Assembly (NCBI GenBank): GCA_028293265.1
Contig: JAQGPB010000022.1
Span: 1 to 10,069 of the forward strand
From: Pedosphaera sp.
GTDB taxonomy: Bacteria > Verrucomicrobiota > Verrucomicrobiae > Limisphaerales > Pedosphaeraceae
DNA length: 10,069 nt
Direction of reading: 5' to 3'
The translations under genes were made by a program, and so were the position numbers. Position 1 is the first letter of the stretch, and the number at the start of each line of letters is the position of its first letter. The notes beneath the pieces are model-generated. The model made no database searches, was not told the DNA's origin, and was given only the letters and a program-made list of their open reading frames with translations. Positions 2,522 to 8,379 of the stretch are shown in pieces.

Positions 2522-3438
2522 TTTTTTCCCGTTCCCAAATTATGATGCAACGCCAGGTCAATCATCCGCTGGCAAAGTTCCGCATAATCAATCCCCGCCG
2601 CCGCCGCCGCCTTGGGCATCAGGCTCAGCTCCGTCATTCCCGGCAGCGTGTTCACCTCCAGCACCACCGGTTCGCCATTGGGCCGCACCATCACATCCAC
2701 CCGCGCATAATCGCGTCCGCCGATCGCGTGGAACGCCCCCAACGCCGCCGTCTGGATGCTCTTGGCAACCGCCGCATCCAGTTGTGCCGGACAAAAAACC
2801 TCGGTCGCTCCCGGCGTATATTTGTTCTGATAATCGAATGTGCCGCTCTTGGGCCGCACTTCAATCACCGGGAGCGCTTGGTTCGCCAAAATGCCAACCG
2901 TCGTTTCGCGGCCGACAATTCTTTCTTCCATCAACACCTGCGAATCATATCGCAACGCCTCGGTCAACGCCTTGTTCCAATCCGCAACGCGCTCAACAAA
3001 TTGCAGCCCCACGCTCGAGCCCTGCCGCACCGGCTTCAACACCACCGGCGGCTCCCAGCCCATCGGCCAGCTTGACGAAGCCGAATCGAACACCATGAAC
3101 TTCGCGGTCGGCACATTCGCCGCCACACATTTCTGCTTGGTCAAAAATTTATCGAAACCAATCCTGCTCGCTTCGGCATCGCAGCCCGTGTAAGGCACAT
3201 CAAGTTCATCCAGCCGGCGCTGCACCGTTCCATCCTCGCCATACGTTCCATGCAACGCCAAAAAAACCACCTGCGTCTCCGGCGATAATTTCCAGTCCGG
3301 TTCCTTTGGATCGAGTTCCGTGACCTGATGGCCCAGCGAACGCAACGCCTTCGCCACTGATTTGCCCGAACGCAACGACACCTCGCGTTCCGCCGAAGGC
3401 CCGCCGAGCATGACTGTGATATGAAGACTCTTTGACAT
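2518..3438 (-). CDS. ddl: D-alanine--D-alanine ligase
   Basis: Ddl joins two D-alanines with ATP to give the dipeptide that MurF adds to UDP-MurNAc-tripeptide. The 306-residue length is normal for Ddl. Visible blocks: VMLGGPSAEREVSLRSG near the N-terminus, ALHGTYGEDG, YTGCDAEAS, the ATP-grasp loop VLKPVRQGSSVG, the omega-loop motif FDYQNKYTPG, and the Mg-binding end GEPVVLEVNTLPGMTELSL. Tyr in the KY of the omega loop is typical of D-Ala-D-Ala ligases; VanA/Leuconostoc-type D-Ala-D-Lac ligases carry Phe there. I chose ATG 3438 because the frame above it (to 3486) reads only repeat A. The start lies 5 nt after the stop of the four-helix-bundle gene and has only weak AAGAA as ribosome binding site. 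The natural 5' flank of ddl therefore seems to have been replaced by repeat sequence. Overlaps ftsQ by 4 nt. Confidence 0.96.
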   Translation of the reverse strand: MSKSLHITVMLGGPSAEREVSLRSGKSVAKALRSLGHQVTELDPKEPDWKLSPETQVVFLALHGTYGEDGTVQRRLDELDVPYTGCDAEASRIGFDKFLTKQKCVAANVPTAKFMVFDSASSSWPMGWEPPVVLKPVRQGSSVGLQFVERVADWNKALTEALRYDSQVLMEERIVGRETTVGILANQALPVIEVRPKSGTFDYQNKYTPGATEVFCPAQLDAAVAKSIQTAALGAFHAIGGRDYARVDVMVRPNGEPVVLEVNTLPGMTELSLMPKAAAAAGIDYAELCQRMIDLALHHNLGTGKK

Positions 3439-3443
3439 TGTTC

Positions 3444-3827
3444 TTATTGGCGATTGCGGATTGCGGATTGCGGATTGCCCGACCATTTGGCCGTCTTGCA
3501 GGAGGCGACAATCATCGCAAGCAGTTCATCTGCTTCTTGCATCAAGTTCGTCAAACGCGCCTGTTTTATTTGATTGCCTTCGATGAGCAATTCCATCCAG
3601 TACATTGATTCATCGCGCTCTTCTTCGACGATGCCCATTTTGGAAACGAAGTCGGCCCGCGATCTTGCGCGGCAGGCCGCGCGATAATTTGCACCCACGG
3701 AAGTCCCGCTGCGCAGCAACTGCCTGCCAATAACATCGGAGGTTCGAGTCTTCGGCAGCGATTCAACCAAATGAATCACCCGCAATGCAAATGCTTTCGT
3801 CCTTTTTTTGAAAACTTCCGGATTCAT
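3444..3827 (-). CDS. Four-helix-bundle protein, 23S rRNA intervening-sequence (IVP) family
   Basis: Small protein of the TIGR02436-like family, first seen encoded in intervening sequences of bacterial 23S rRNA and related to the Avd protein of diversity-generating retroelements. Family members form helical-bundle oligomers; their cellular function is not established. The 127-residue product shows the signature: KKRTKAFALRVIHLVESLP (7-25), then IGRQLLRSGTSVGANYRAA (33-51), then ARSRADFVSKMGIVEEERD (54-72), ESMYWMELL (73-81) and a last helix to about 113. Four helices can be assigned. The final ten residues (NPQSAIRNRQ) are translated from repeat A, not from the family. Two starts are possible, ATG 3833 and ATG 3827; I chose 3827 because MNPE-F-KRT is the usual family start. 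The frame runs open up to 3902 but that part is repeat B and flank. The gene is an intruder between murB and ddl and has no known cell wall role. Confidence 0.9.
   Translation of the reverse strand: MNPEVFKKRTKAFALRVIHLVESLPKTRTSDVIGRQLLRSGTSVGANYRAACRARSRADFVSKMGIVEEERDESMYWMELLIEGNQIKQARLTNLMQEADELLAMIVASCKTAKWSGNPQSAIRNRQ
3446..3478 (+). repeat. Repeat A: ATTGCGG heptamer array, left arm of the 4HB cassette
   Basis: ATTGGCG is followed by three full ATTGCGG units and a partial fourth (3453-3478). It overlaps the 3' end of the four-helix-bundle gene, whose last residues it encodes. It also supplies the region directly upstream of ddl. Orientation is ATTGCGG on the plus strand, opposite to repeat B. 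Confidence 0.9.
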
Positions 3828-3910
3828 AGTCATAGTATTTCGAAGTTGCCCAAAGCCATGTTCACACCGCGATCTCCGCTTCCGATAATCTGCAATCCGC
3901 AATCGCCAAT
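3446..3910. mobile_element. Putative IVS-like cassette: 4HB gene inside inverted repeats
   Basis: The four-helix-bundle gene is enclosed by ATTGGCGATTGCGGATTGC (19 bp) at 3446-3464 and its exact reverse complement at 3892-3910. Including one mismatch the arms extend to 24 nt with 23 matches (3446-3469 and 3887-3910). The cassette fits neatly between the murB stop (3921) and the ddl start (3438) and interrupts a pair of genes that are normally adjacent in dcw clusters. No clear target-site duplication is seen, and no transposase. In RNA the arms could pair and close the 4HB ORF in a long stem, as in 23S rRNA intervening sequences. Mobility is inferred, not shown. Confidence 0.5.
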
Positions 3911-3919
3911 CCGCAATTT
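3882..3919 (-). repeat. Repeat B: CCGCAAT-type repeat, right arm of the 4HB cassette
   Basis: On the plus strand this contains GCAATCCGCAATCGCCAAT (3892-3910), the exact reverse complement of the start of repeat A, followed by CCGCAATTT up to the murB stop. Read on the minus strand it begins AATTGCGGATTG, the same outer end as repeat C and, with one change, repeat D. Confidence 0.9.
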
Positions 3920-3920
3920 C

Positions 3921-4898
3921 CTACGCTTCTCCCACAATCTCCACTTCCGTCTCCAACTCGATGCTCCGTTGCGACCGCGCCCGCTGCCGTATGAGTTCGA
4001 TCAGTTCCAAAACGTCTTTCGCGCTCGCCTGGCCGTCGTTGATGATGAAATTGCCGTGCTCCTGCGAAACCATCGCGTCACCGACCCGCGTTCCCTTCAA
4101 CCCAAGTTCATCAATCAATTTGCCCGCCGGGACCGTCCCCGGATTTTTAAAAATGCACCCCGCGCTCGGCGCGGCCGGCTGGGATTCCCAGCGCTTCTCG
4201 CTGAAGGTCTTCATCCGTTTGTCCACCACTTCACGGCTCGCCGGATGCCCTTTCAGCACCGCCCCCAGGGCGATGTTCTCTTTCAACAACGGACAGCTCC
4301 GGTACTCCACTTTTATCTGCGCCGCCGGCTCCTCGTGCGCCTGACCGCTGTAGTCCATATAGCGAACCGACTCAACCACATCGAACATCCAGCCGCCCAT
4401 CGCGCCCGCGTTCATGCGCAAGCCGCCGCCGACGGTCCCCGGAATGCCTTCCAAAAATTCCAGCCCCGTCATTTGCGCTCGCTTGGCTTCCGCCGCCACC
4501 TGCTTCAACTTCGCTCCCGCGCCGCAATGCATCCGATGGGCCATGACCTCAACCCGGCTGAAATGGGGATGCGCCAGGCAAATCACCAACCCGCGAATCC
4601 CGCCATCACGGATCAACAGATTGGAACCGCGCCCCAGCACAAAGAACGGCAGTTTCCGGTGCTGGCACAGTTGCAGCAGCTTCGACAATTCCGCTTCAGA
4701 CGCCGGCTCGACATAAAAATCCGCGCTCCCGCCCACGCGCAACGTCGTGCGTTTGGCCAGCGCCTCGTCGCGGCGCAACACGGTTTCTGCGGACACTGCC
4801 GCCTGCAACTCGGACATCAAATCGTTGCTGGACACATTCAAATTTCTCCGGTTTTCACCGGGTTTGGGGCATTCTGGAGCCGGGCTCGTCTGGTTCAC
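3921..4898 (-). CDS. murB: UDP-N-acetylenolpyruvoylglucosamine reductase (MurB)
   Basis: FAD enzyme that reduces UDP-GlcNAc-enolpyruvate to UDP-MurNAc with NADPH. Seen in the 325-residue frame: TTLRVGG (51-57), FAD pyrophosphate loop LGRGSNLL (88-95), GIPGTVGGGLRMNAGAMGG (151-169), substrate-binding EYRSCPL (198-204), PSAGCIFKNP (244-253) and SQEHGNFIIN (279-287), ending in LETEVEIVGE with the catalytic Glu. Cys248 takes the place of the proton-donating Ser of E. coli MurB (Ser229), a known alternative in the family. It looks like the shorter type II MurB. The GTG at 4898 overlaps the murG stop as GTGA but has no ribosome binding site, and residues 1-21 look non-homologous. GTG 4835, with GGAGA (4845-4849 complement) 9 nt upstream, is a good alternative start giving 304 residues. 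The expected murC is missing between murG and murB. Confidence 0.95.
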   Translation of the reverse strand: MNQTSPAPECPKPGENRRNLNVSSNDLMSELQAAVSAETVLRRDEALAKRTTLRVGGSADFYVEPASEAELSKLLQLCQHRKLPFFVLGRGSNLLIRDGGIRGLVICLAHPHFSRVEVMAHRMHCGAGAKLKQVAAEAKRAQMTGLEFLEGIPGTVGGGLRMNAGAMGGWMFDVVESVRYMDYSGQAHEEPAAQIKVEYRSCPLLKENIALGAVLKGHPASREVVDKRMKTFSEKRWESQPAAPSAGCIFKNPGTVPAGKLIDELGLKGTRVGDAMVSQEHGNFIINDGQASAKDVLELIELIRQRARSQRSIELETEVEIVGEA

Positions 4899-6070
4899 GT
4901 AATTGCTGATTGTCGGTTTTGGATATTGGGTGAAACTGGTGCCGCGATGCCACCCGCGGCGCGACGGCGCGACGTCACCACCTGCATGATGTTCTCAGCA
5001 ATCTGTTCCGCCGCGTTCGGAACATGCCCTCCAGCCAGTGCCGCGCGCATTTTCTCGCGCATAATGGCGTTCTCCATCAAATCCACGATTTTTGGCGCAA
5101 GCAATTCCGGCTTGGCCCTGCTCTGCTCGATCAAACAGGCCGCGCCGGTTTTCTCAAAAGCAAGTGCATTATAATATTGGTGATTGTCCGTCGCGGCGGG
5201 AAACGGCACCAAAATGGCCGGCACACGCATCGCGGCCAATTCCGCCAAGGACGACGCCCCTGCCCGGCTGATGGCCGCGCTGGCCGCTCCGAGTGCCAGA
5301 TGCATTTCGGCAAAAAACGGGCGAACCATCGCCTTCACCTTGTTCGCCGCGCAAGCTTGCTCAACTTTCCCGGCATCGGCCGGCCCGGTCAGATGAAACA
5401 ACTGCAATCCGGGCACGAGCCTTGCCAAGTTCGGCAGCATTGCAATCACCAAATCATTCAATCCGCTTGCGCCCTGGCTGCCGCCGGTCACCAGCAACAC
5501 GGGCCGTTCCGGTTCCAATCCCAGCGCCACCCGGCAGGCGGCCGCATCCATCGGCTGAAATTGTGGTCGCACCGGCGTCCCGGTGGCTTTCACATGGCGC
5601 GTGTGCAGGCGCTCCGCAGCTTCGGGAAAACCGACAAACGCGCGATTGACCGTCCATGACAACCACCGGTTCGCGCGTCCGGGAATCGTGTTCGACTCGT
5701 GCAGAAAAGCCGGTGCGCCGCACGCTTTGCCTGCCAGCACTGGCGGCGCGCTGGTAAATCCGCCCATTGCCAGCACGGCCTCGGGCCGCGCGGTTTTGAA
5801 AAGTTTGGCCGCCGCGCGATACGATTGCGCGAAACCCCGCACAAACGCCAAAACCCGACCCCGGCTCAAACCAACCGCCGGCAAAGTCGCCACCTGCATC
5901 CCCGCCACGGCTTTCACCGCCTGTTGGTCCACTTCCTTCGGAGAAATCAGCAAAGTCACCGCGCAACCGCGCTGCTTCAGCTCCTCCGCCACCGCCACGC
6001 CGGGAAACAAATGCCCTCCCGTGCCACCACACGCGATGGCCACCCGGGGCGCTGAACTTTGGTTTTGCAT
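4895..6070 (-). CDS. murG: UDP-GlcNAc:lipid I GlcNAc transferase (MurG)
   Basis: Peripheral membrane glycosyltransferase (GT28) that converts lipid I to lipid II on the cytoplasmic face. Motifs in order: GGTGGH (15-20), AMGGFTSAPPVLAGK (101-115), HESNTIPGRANR (124-135), second-domain loop GGSQGASGLN (196-205), SRAGASSLAELAA (268-280) with the UDP-GlcNAc-binding Glu, and FPAATDNHQYYNA (290-302). The ATG at 6070 is preferred to TTG 6073; no clear ribosome binding site. At 391 residues it is longer than usual (about 355-370). The excess is a C-terminal tail from about 367, of which 381-391 (PNIQNRQSAIT) reads repeat D. The tail is probably dispensable. The stop overlaps murB by 4 nt. The gene is bracketed by repeats D and C in the same inward arrangement as the 4HB gene. 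Confidence 0.96.
   Translation of the reverse strand: MQNQSSAPRVAIACGGTGGHLFPGVAVAEELKQRGCAVTLLISPKEVDQQAVKAVAGMQVATLPAVGLSRGRVLAFVRGFAQSYRAAAKLFKTARPEAVLAMGGFTSAPPVLAGKACGAPAFLHESNTIPGRANRWLSWTVNRAFVGFPEAAERLHTRHVKATGTPVRPQFQPMDAAACRVALGLEPERPVLLVTGGSQGASGLNDLVIAMLPNLARLVPGLQLFHLTGPADAGKVEQACAANKVKAMVRPFFAEMHLALGAASAAISRAGASSLAELAAMRVPAILVPFPAATDNHQYYNALAFEKTGAACLIEQSRAKPELLAPKIVDLMENAIMREKMRAALAGGHVPNAAEQIAENIMQVVTSRRRAAGGIAAPVSPNIQNRQSAIT
4901..4930 (+). repeat. Repeat D: diverged ATTGCGG-type repeat in the 3' end of murG
   Basis: AATTGCTGATTGT (4901-4913) matches the outer end of repeat C (AATTGCGGATTGT on its minus strand) with one change, and the similarity continues with a few gaps. 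It encodes the last residues of MurG (IQNRQSAIT), the same kind of peptide that repeat A adds to the 4HB protein. Orientation is the same as repeat A. Confidence 0.65.
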
Positions 6071-6194
6071 CAAATCAATTTCAAACTAAACCGCCACGGC
6101 AGGGATGGCGCGCTGCGCCGTCCCCGTCCTTGTGCACAGCGTCAGGCGACGAAACGGATGCCCCAAGACACAACATCTCACCACTTCTTCTTCC

Positions 6195-6228
6195 AAATCC
6201 GCAATCCGAAATCCACAATCCGCAATTC
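6195..6228 (-). repeat. Repeat C: CCGCAAT-type repeat between ftsW and murG
   Basis: Plus-strand AATCCGCAATCCGAAATCCACAATCCGCAATT: heptamer-like CCGCAAT units, some diverged. It begins 3 nt after the ftsW stop on the minus strand. It has the orientation of repeat B and the inverted orientation to repeat D. The remaining ftsW-murG gap (6074-6194) shows no gene or clear signal. Confidence 0.8.
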
Positions 6229-6231
6229 ATT

Positions 6232-7356
6232 TCACGTCGCCTGCGGAACCCCTTCCGGTTCCAAAGAAGTCGCCGCCGGCGCGTTAACCGCGCGGGCGCG
6301 TCGCGCAATACTCAGTAAAAGCCCGACGCTTGTGAGCATCATTACCAGGTTGGAGCCGCCGTAACTGATAAATGGGAGCGGTAGGCCTTTGTTGGGAAGG
6401 GTACTGGTGACGACGCCGATATTGATAAATGCTTGCAGGCCAATCAGAAAGGTAAGGCCGGTGCCGAGCAGGAGCCCGAAGTTGTCACTGGCATGCGAGG
6501 ATATATATATGCCGGCGATTACCAGCAGGACAAAGGCGAGCACGACCAGGAGGGTCGCGGCGAGACCGAGTTCTTCACCGATGATGGAAAAAATGAAATC
6601 AGTATTGTGTTCCGGCAAAAAGCCGAGCTTTTCGCGGCTGTTGCCCAGGCCAAGTCCGTTCCAGCCGCCCGCGCCGAGGGCCAGCATCGCCTGGTTGGCC
6701 TGATAGCCGATGTCCATCTTGTGCTTGTCAGCATCCAGCCAGGCAAAGATGCGCTTGGTTCGCATCGGGTCATGCATGATGGAAACGGCGAAGGCCGCAG
6801 CGCCCGCCAAAATCGGCGGGATGATGAATTTCCAGCGCGCGCCGGCGATGAAAAACATCGCCGCCGTCACCGTGGCCATCAAAATGGTCGTCCCCCGGTC
6901 CGGTTCGACAAAGATCAACATCAGCACCGCGCCGATCAGCATGCCGGGATACAACATGCCCTGTTTGAATTCTCCCAATCGCCGTTGATAACGATCACCA
7001 TACCAGGCGATGGCGATGATCAAGGCGAGTTTGCCGGCTTCTGAAGGCTGTAATGTCACTCCGGCAAATCGGAGCCACCGCCGCGCTCCGTTCACCTTGA
7101 AACCGATGTGTGGCACCAGCACCATCACCAGCAACAGAACCGCAAATATCAAAATGGGCCAGGCCCATTTTTTCAACAGCCGGTAATCCATGCCGGTCGC
7201 CACCGCACAACCCAGCAGTCCAAGCGAACACCAGACGACCTGCATCTGGAGATAGTGCGTCCCATGGTCCGCCATGCTTGAGCTGTAGAGCATCACCATG
7301 CCCAGGGCGAGCAGGGAGATGACACACAAAATCAAGGTTGTCGTGGCGGTTTTCAC
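6232..7356 (-). CDS. ftsW: FtsW, septal peptidoglycan glycosyltransferase (SEDS)
   Basis: Polytopic SEDS protein that polymerises lipid II at the septum together with a class B PBP (FtsI). The 374-residue product has about ten hydrophobic segments. Family landmarks are NGARRWL (89-95), QPSE (103-106), EPDRGTT (151-157), the long extracellular loop with FLPEHNTDFIFSIIGEELG (246-264), whose Asp253 corresponds to the essential acidic residue of SEDS enzymes, and LPNKGLPLPFISYGGSN (320-336). FtsW rather than RodA is supported by the position between murD and murG. The start is GTG 7356; a nearby ATG upstream runs into a stop after two codons, and no strong ribosome binding site is present. The C-terminal tail after about 355 is short, Ala/Pro-rich and cytoplasmic. 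Its own promoter may lie in the gap upstream. Confidence 0.96.
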   Translation of the reverse strand: MKTATTTLILCVISLLALGMVMLYSSSMADHGTHYLQMQVVWCSLGLLGCAVATGMDYRLLKKWAWPILIFAVLLLVMVLVPHIGFKVNGARRWLRFAGVTLQPSEAGKLALIIAIAWYGDRYQRRLGEFKQGMLYPGMLIGAVLMLIFVEPDRGTTILMATVTAAMFFIAGARWKFIIPPILAGAAAFAVSIMHDPMRTKRIFAWLDADKHKMDIGYQANQAMLALGAGGWNGLGLGNSREKLGFLPEHNTDFIFSIIGEELGLAATLLVVLAFVLLVIAGIYISSHASDNFGLLLGTGLTFLIGLQAFINIGVVTSTLPNKGLPLPFISYGGSNLVMMLTSVGLLLSIARRARAVNAPAATSLEPEGVPQAT

Positions 7357-8279: not shown

Positions 8280-8339
8280 TTGGCTGTGGCGCTCGTAAGC
8301 GTCCTTTCTTATGAGGTGGTGGTTATGTGTTGTTTTTTC

Positions 8340-8374
8340 GCGCCGGGGTTTTTTCCTCAAAAAAACCCCGGCGC
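8340..8374. promoter_or_regulatory. 15-bp perfect inverted repeat between murD and the LysM gene
   Basis: Arms at 8340-8354 and 8360-8374 (GCGCCGGGGTTTTTT and its exact complement) with a 5-nt loop. It lies 5 nt past the murD stop. The stem is GC-rich at the base and A/T at the tip. On the minus strand it is followed by a run of A, not T, so it is not a textbook terminator for murD. It could act as an mRNA end or stability element. The rest of the 100-nt gap shows nothing clear except a distant AAAGGA. Confidence 0.6.
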
Positions 8375-8379
8375 AAATT

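Follow-up and report, generated by a model that had tools for sequence, protein, structure and literature searches.

Cyanobacterial heptanucleotide repeats, known as STRR, are present in RNase P RNA. Heptamer repeats have also been reported in the P6b stem of the Nostoc trnL intron, where the stem repeats TDNGATT and NNTGAGT are of unknown origin (PMC4476775), in Xanthomonas, with GGGAATC arrays in 70 and 75 inverted pairs (PMC4692102), and in Beggiatoaceae, with arrays of TAACTGA (PMC4679880). Tandem heptamers are likewise described for the intervening sequence (IVS) of the Coxiella 23S rRNA, a 428-nt insert with a 28-bp stem and an S23p ORF in the sense orientation to the rRNA; two or three GACAGAT units, depending on the strain, and a variant unit lie ahead of the ORF, and RNase III cleaves in vitro at the first heptamer of the 5′ stem (PMC4990558). 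The same report cites 23S rRNA IVSs for Leptospira, Xanthomonas and Brucella too. The four-helix-bundle (4HB) family PF05635 is reported to be similar, both in sequence and in structure, to Avd, an accessory protein of diversity-generating retroelements (DGRs) (PMC10053308). Among the titles and abstract openings listed in searches of an open-access library, we found no paper joining 4HB genes outside rRNA to heptamer arms.

The locus considered here lies in a 10,069-nucleotide stretch of DNA from Pedosphaera sp. (the window). Read along the minus strand, it consists of murB (3921-4898), a 5′ arm (3917-3887), a 129-aa 4HB ORF (3833-3444, stop codon at 3446-3444), a 3′ arm (3478-3446) sharing sequence with the 3′ end of this ORF, and ddl (3438-2518). 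The ORF and arms form a unit of ~475 bp (3444-3917) between two co-directional host genes, murB being recognised from the ORF list and by tblastn to the murB-ddl pairs of relatives, and ddl from the ORF list and from relatives that are 76-81% identical. The ORF belongs to PF05635 (E 2.2e-17, 63.6 bits against a cut-off of 33.8) and TIGR02436 (E 4e-25, 88.1 bits against a cut-off of 24). Its sole strong match among solved structures is PDB 2RLD, an uncharacterised protein (E 8.9e-21); the profile search of PDB sequences returned this entry and one weak match, and Avd was absent. The 4HB ORF stands alone in the unit, with no transposase or reverse transcriptase inside it, and the ORFs of the window, read by eye, have the look of cell-wall and division genes, with no reverse transcriptase noticed. 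By reading of the ORF list, a murG-like ORF (4895-6073) directly overlaps the murB-like ORF (3921-4898), with no murC-like ORF between them. Elsewhere in the window, a near-perfect hairpin at 8337-8377 (18-nt arms, 94%, 5-nt loop), ending in T and A runs, resembles a bidirectional terminator and lies at the 5′ end of a LysM-like ORF.

The arms are built of tandem 7-bp units of the ATTGCGG type. The 5′ arm (3887-3917) reads ATTGCGG ATTGGCG ATTGCGG ATTGCAG ATT on the minus strand, with array matches at 3887, 3894 and 3901, and a lag-7 run at 3452-3478 marks the 3′ arm, which reads GATTGCG on the plus strand. By repeat search, 3446-3469 and 3887-3910 are complementary at 23 of 24 positions (96%), and the 5′ arm also pairs in inverted orientation with 3446-3476 (31 nt, 84%) and 3453-3478 (26 nt, 92%). 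Because both arms are tandem heptamers, pairing is possible in several registers. Exact inverted pairs within 1 kb attain at most 19 bp, a length reached in one of 200 first-order Markov simulations of the window (mean 12.0). The original prediction, a 4HB gene of the IVS family with an inverted repeat between murB and ddl, is upheld by the profile matches, the 23-of-24 arms and the 19-bp exact pair, while the 7-bp tandem make-up of the repeat had been missed. Chance as the source of the inverted repeat was ruled out by the simulations together with the census of 81 genes presented below. A solo heptamer array is found at 6196-6226 on the plus strand (AATCCGC AATCCGA AATCCAC AATCCGC AAT; a lag-7 run, score 12), in the gap between cell-division ORFs that read as ftsW and murG in the ORF list. 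It is possibly a remnant arm; a repeat search of 5900-6700 gave no partner arm.

In the predicted RNA fold of the unit the arms are paired at the minimum energy (-177.1 kcal/mol, z -3.2), and none of 100 shuffles was as low. The unit shares with 23S rRNA IVSs complementary ends able to form a stem and an ORF in sense to the predicted host transcript, and it shares tandem heptamers with the Coxiella IVS. It does not lie inside a 23S rRNA gene: its position is between murB and ddl, and an Rfam scan of 3300-4100 at E 1 gave zero family matches. Across 281 loci, a motif search for an rRNA location, allowing two mismatches, gave single matches in 7. The proposal of an IVS-type design outside rRNA is supported, and the tandem heptamers reported for the Coxiella IVS agree with it. 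The unit is real, and we take it to be a variant of IVSs that lies outside rRNA.

The unit could behave as a true IVS at the RNA level, with RNase III cleaving the operon mRNA where the arms pair and thereby freeing the 4HB piece or splitting the expression of murB and ddl. The predicted arm stem is consistent with such cleavage, as is the reported in vitro cutting by RNase III of the Coxiella IVS, which has the same heptamer and 4HB design (PMC4990558). Orientation was compared across 81 4HB loci: both neighbours lay within 700 bp at 60 of them, the neighbours were co-directional at 42, and the 4HB gene was sense in 39 of these 42, as RNA-level cleavage would have it. While this differs from a coin flip (p 6e-9), ordinary ORFs are sense in 138 of 164 cases, and 4HB genes do not stand out against them (p 0.21). 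The 3′ arm can be translated. In the window, the 3′ arm codes for the C-terminal end of the 4HB protein (GNPQSAIRNRQ), and the ddl frame is likewise open across it from an ATG at 3486. Among 16 hand-picked loci, the 3′ arm was read as the 4HB C-terminus with IRNPQSA-like peptides in the window, L002, L011, L015 and L017, and as the start of the next gene, its start codon overlapping the 4HB stop, in L003, L007, L019, L075 and L079. These overlaps suggest coupling more than uncoupling, and excision would destroy both them and the translated arms. Cleavage of this kind is compatible with an origin as an inserted element, and the two can be true together; we consider it unlikely.

The arm census covered 81 4HB genes, namely that of the window and 80 relatives (51-70% identity), which are the best 80 among the places confirmed for a single query, at least 565 in number. 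These loci come from Planctomycetota, Chloroflexota, Acidobacteriota, Cyanobacteriota, Verrucomicrobiota, Pseudomonadota, Bacteroidota and other phyla. Tandems of GA[TAG]TNNN were found upstream of 72 of the 81 genes and inverted tandems downstream of 74. As anticipated for relatives of the window's gene, arrays in the expected orientation lie on both sides of 66 genes and on at least one side of 80; the one gene with neither (L053) has a start called too far upstream, where an array is visible in the lag-7 scan. Arrays facing the wrong way occurred upstream of 8 genes and downstream of 10, the background being ~0.06-0.07 per 200 bp. In a motif-free scan, 106 lag-7 runs fell within 400 bp of a 4HB gene (1.14 per kb) and 57 fell farther off, in ~503 kb (0.11 per kb), giving a tenfold density near the genes; lags of 5, 6 and 8-11 gave 0-2 runs there.

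The heptamers of these elements include GATTGCG, GATTTTG, GAATGCG, GAGTGCG and GATTGAC, and they vary from element to element, even inside one genome (L033 and L043). Within an element, the variable positions of the unit match between the two arms at a frequency of 0.71 (n=66), compared with 0.468 +/- 0.021 when arms of different elements were paired (highest value 0.537 in 2000 permutations, n=66). Avoidance of stop codons by the units is unsupported, since the units were stop-free in 55 of the 72 left arms and in 67 of the 74 right arms, against proportions of 0.81 and 0.92 for column-shuffled units.

PF05635 genes retrieved by family search carry inverted arrays too, with units such as AAATCGT, TCAGTTA, GGTTACT, GGGCATT, AAACAGT and GGGAGTG (25 loci shown). 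One of these loci (L142) has a 9-bp unit, and two (L116 and L130) show short, non-repetitive arm matches only. Three family searches gave 48 loci, 41 of which were scored, the other 7 being partial or weak; the similarity table covers 17 of 20 fetched stretches, and L156 and L159 were used as later queries. A single 4.1-Mb genome held 17 family matches, 14 of them above the cut-off. A lag-7 run of at least 12 was present on at least one side of 62 of the 79 genes related to the query. Among the family genes it was present at 17 of 26 with high scores and at 10 of 14 with lower scores, the last group lacking independence because 8 of the 41 family-search genes are query loci. Of 279 control ORFs, which were drawn from the same loci, 22 had such a run. 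The division between high and lower scores, at E 1e-20, was set after the data had been seen, and three genes with short flanks were left out of this comparison. The median inverted-arm score was 40-42 at 4HB genes and 18 at control ORFs. Counting against an element family are the arrays that stand without a 4HB gene, namely the 57 distant lag-7 runs and the 22 control ORFs.

Insertion and decay were followed by allelic comparisons in Nostoc. Among 53 Nostoc genomes, the element at L156 is present in G021, with a diverged copy in G061. Nineteen listed genomes have both flanks, and in 15 of them the site is empty, the flanks meeting with an overlap of exactly 8 nt; this overlap is typically ATTAGCCA in the empty site, and ATTAACCA stands on either side of the G021 element. 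Of the remaining four, one is the query, one holds the G061 copy, one has another insert and one is rearranged. The units of this element, the source of the clean 8-bp target duplication, measure 9 bp rather than 7. At a second site (L119), the 29 genomes listed comprise 8 full-length inserts, 4 of them with in-frame stops, 18 empty alleles, 2 inserts from which the ORF is deleted, leaving gaps of 177 and 183 nt, and 1 allele with a 47-nt heptamer stretch, which has private flanking sequence in common with a filled allele.

At a third Nostoc site the units are GATTTTA/G, akin to those of the window. Full-length elements are found at 5 of 30 loci (2 with in-frame stops), 14 retain both arms around a shortened or scrambled ORF, and 1 is nearly clean. 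The alleles that keep arms without an intact ORF indicate that ORFs get lost and that heptamer arms can persist. At the other 10 loci (L245-L250, L254, L255, L259 and L261) an unrelated repeat of ~100-120 nt replaces the 4HB element. A fourth site is common to 14 genomes, and in most of them the arms take up the gap that separates the stop of an operon gene from the start of the gene after it. Many of the Nostoc copies, at the third and fourth sites, are vertical. The empty alleles of Rhodoferax consist of closely spaced gene pairs, the flank matches lying 15 and 27 nt apart, and the comparison of filled and empty alleles showed no visible target duplication. No clean duplication was seen for elements with GATT-type units, the repeat type of the window.

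The target duplication also fits a different origin, in which the 4HB gene and its arrays are passengers of ordinary DNA transposons, carried as a MITE by any transposase able to recognise the ends, and the heptamers are no more than slippage-prone terminal repeats. In two Nostoc genomes, four 4HB matches of the same score occur in each. They were considered as IVSs of rRNA operons, and this was rejected: 6 of the 8 fetched loci were scanned against Rfam with zero matches, and they are repeated units. In G059 these form a 573-bp repeat (L230, L232, L229 and L231) that encloses a 4HB gene and GCAGGGA arrays, has IS-like outer inverted ends (GGAGCAATGCGATTTTGTGAGAT) and lies where the contigs stop. 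Two of the contig ends share a 10-nt flank, CTTGAGCGAT, which suggests a 10-bp target duplication. The other genome, G029, holds four near-identical 4HB regions (L225-L228) with at least 549 bp in common, beginning CTCACAAGTGTAGGTTTTTTACAAAAAAC, one of which sits in a differing larger context. Copies on plasmids are in keeping with a passenger as well. 4HB copies were found on 26 of 72,556 plasmid records and 2 of 50,697 phage records, with one relative among viral contigs. The four plasmid copies that were opened (L313-L316) carry GATT-type arrays and are flanked by genes of defence type, two of them by DUF1156 and Swt1-HEPN and two by drmD and PglX or MmeI; defence-type operons on plasmids are a possible vehicle for the spread of 4HB genes. 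Against carriage as a passenger, a common outer end is seen neither in the window nor in the arm tables of the relatives and of the family-search genes, and units that differ even within one genome (L033 and L043) leave no fixed recognition sequence in common. We regard transposon carriage as an improbable account, somewhat below cleavage of the mRNA.

The original prediction also held that the unit may be mobile and that murB-ddl junctions with and without it should be compared. Eight genomes from the family of G002 (Pedosphaera sp.) were compared at this junction. L084 has a 4HB ORF that is 65% identical, decayed 4HB sequence is present in L098 (by tblastn) and L094 (by eye), and 4HB sequence is absent from L097, with 116 nt at the junction, and from L093, L095, L096 and L099, with 15-36 nt. 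In eight further verrucomicrobial genomes (L085-L092), tblastn gave no 4HB match at the junction, such matches being confined to the window, L084 and L098. In the protein tree, the 4HB sequence of the window and that of L084 belong to a single 13-row group, with support of 90/83, which is under the tool's mark for good support. The empty relatives are too diverged to delimit the ends of the window copy, and hence any target duplication there. Since relatives hold the gene or its remnants at the same junction, the window copy looks old and mainly vertical. The simplest reading of these sequences is that it is probably an old insertion in its family, with several losses since; alternatively, repeated insertion at one spot may have occurred. 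Insertion is supported for a Nostoc relative by its 8-bp duplication. Conserved vertical inheritance, which the original prediction had named as a refutation, makes recent mobility of the window copy less likely and does not weaken the status of the family as elements.

The 4HB proteins evolve under constraint, with dN/dS of 0.10-0.36 in 17 pairs and 0.12 over 28 pairs of the 8 intact genes at the fourth Nostoc site. In the 4HB tree several phyla are interleaved. The tree has 33 changes of phylum label against a minimum of 13 and a shuffled mean of 49.4, so that proteins cluster by phylum above shuffles; it was built on few columns, and 25 of its 89 inner branches are well supported. More than one phylum change in such a tree is no proof of transfer. 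Constraint, together with the murB-ddl site common to relatives, could mean that the window simply carries a small operon gene of the ordinary kind, passed on vertically, next to unrelated simple-sequence arrays that such genomes contain in any case, and heptamer arrays are indeed present at a distance from 4HB genes (57 runs in ~503 kb, the 22 of 279 control ORFs and the solo array at 6196-6226). Unrelated arrays would hardly show a tenfold density near the gene, a fixed inverted orientation and agreement between the arms of one element, nor would an ordinary gene insert as a whole unit, as the Nostoc element with 9-bp units did, or leave full elements decayed to bare arms at orthologous sites. 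This account is very improbable.

Taken together, these results favour a model in which the window unit is probably one member of a widespread family of small insertion elements, present in many phyla, with a 4HB gene between inverted arrays of mostly 7-bp units. The architecture, the agreement of arms within an element, the presence in many phyla, the decay to arms and the constraint on the protein were all observed for the family; clean insertion of a whole unit with target duplication was observed for one Nostoc element, that with 9-bp units. The repeated 573-bp unit of G059 with its shared 10-nt flank, the interleaving of phyla in the 4HB tree and the tandem heptamers of the Coxiella IVS speak for the model as well. 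In this model, read-through from the upstream gene would transcribe the element, and the arms would fold into a long RNA stem as in rRNA IVSs. The 4HB protein, a member of the IVS-protein family and Avd-like by report, might contact this stem or its RNA and help a trans-acting enzyme to mobilise the element. Slippage could renew each array and give rise to an element-specific unit; heptamer number does differ between corresponding arrays of two Planktothrix agardhii strains (L314 and L316). Loss of the ORF would then leave heptamer hairpins.

A broader reading, which we put forward tentatively and would not presume, is that there is a large superfamily of bacterial insertion elements with ends that are no fixed sequence, each element having its own tandem heptamer in mirror image on the two sides of a 4HB gene. 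The rRNA IVSs would be the members that landed in rRNA, and STRR, the trnL P6b repeats and the Xanthomonas GGGAATC pairs would be decayed arms, the arms being rewritten on moving, perhaps by an RNA-templated process with the Avd-like protein. If true, this would unite in a single element family three things that have been described separately: rRNA IVSs, a very large family of four-helix-bundle proteins to which no function is assigned, and the heptanucleotide repeats of bacteria. The filled, decaying and empty alleles of Nostoc genomes would make the old question of IVS mobility testable. The element family also poses a puzzle, namely how the two arms of one element share a unit while other elements, even in the same genome, differ.

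Compared with the described systems, the window unit is closest to the Coxiella IVS (PMC4990558), as presented in that source, in the Pfam family and sense orientation of its 4HB ORF, in complementary ends that can form a long stem, in tandem heptamers and in size, the Coxiella heptamers being taken from the authors' text rather than from sequence. It differs in lying in a protein-coding operon instead of rRNA and in its repeat, ATTGCGG, and RNase III cleavage is known for the Coxiella element. A reverse transcriptase and template and variable repeats, the parts of a DGR, were not noticed by eye in the window. With MITEs and small IS elements, the family shares terminal inverted repeats, which the window has, target duplication in one Nostoc case and decay by internal deletion; it departs from them in having element-specific array ends rather than a fixed sequence and in carrying a conserved gene that is not a transposase. 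Like the published heptanucleotide repeats, its arms are tandem 7-bp units, often in complementary hairpin pairs and of the GATT or GAGT type, and the tandem 7-bp arrays of the window resemble STRR in form, a likeness that does not imply descent. The parts of those publications considered here describe the repeats without a 4HB gene, whereas in the present elements they serve as arms around a gene and can persist once its ORF has decayed.
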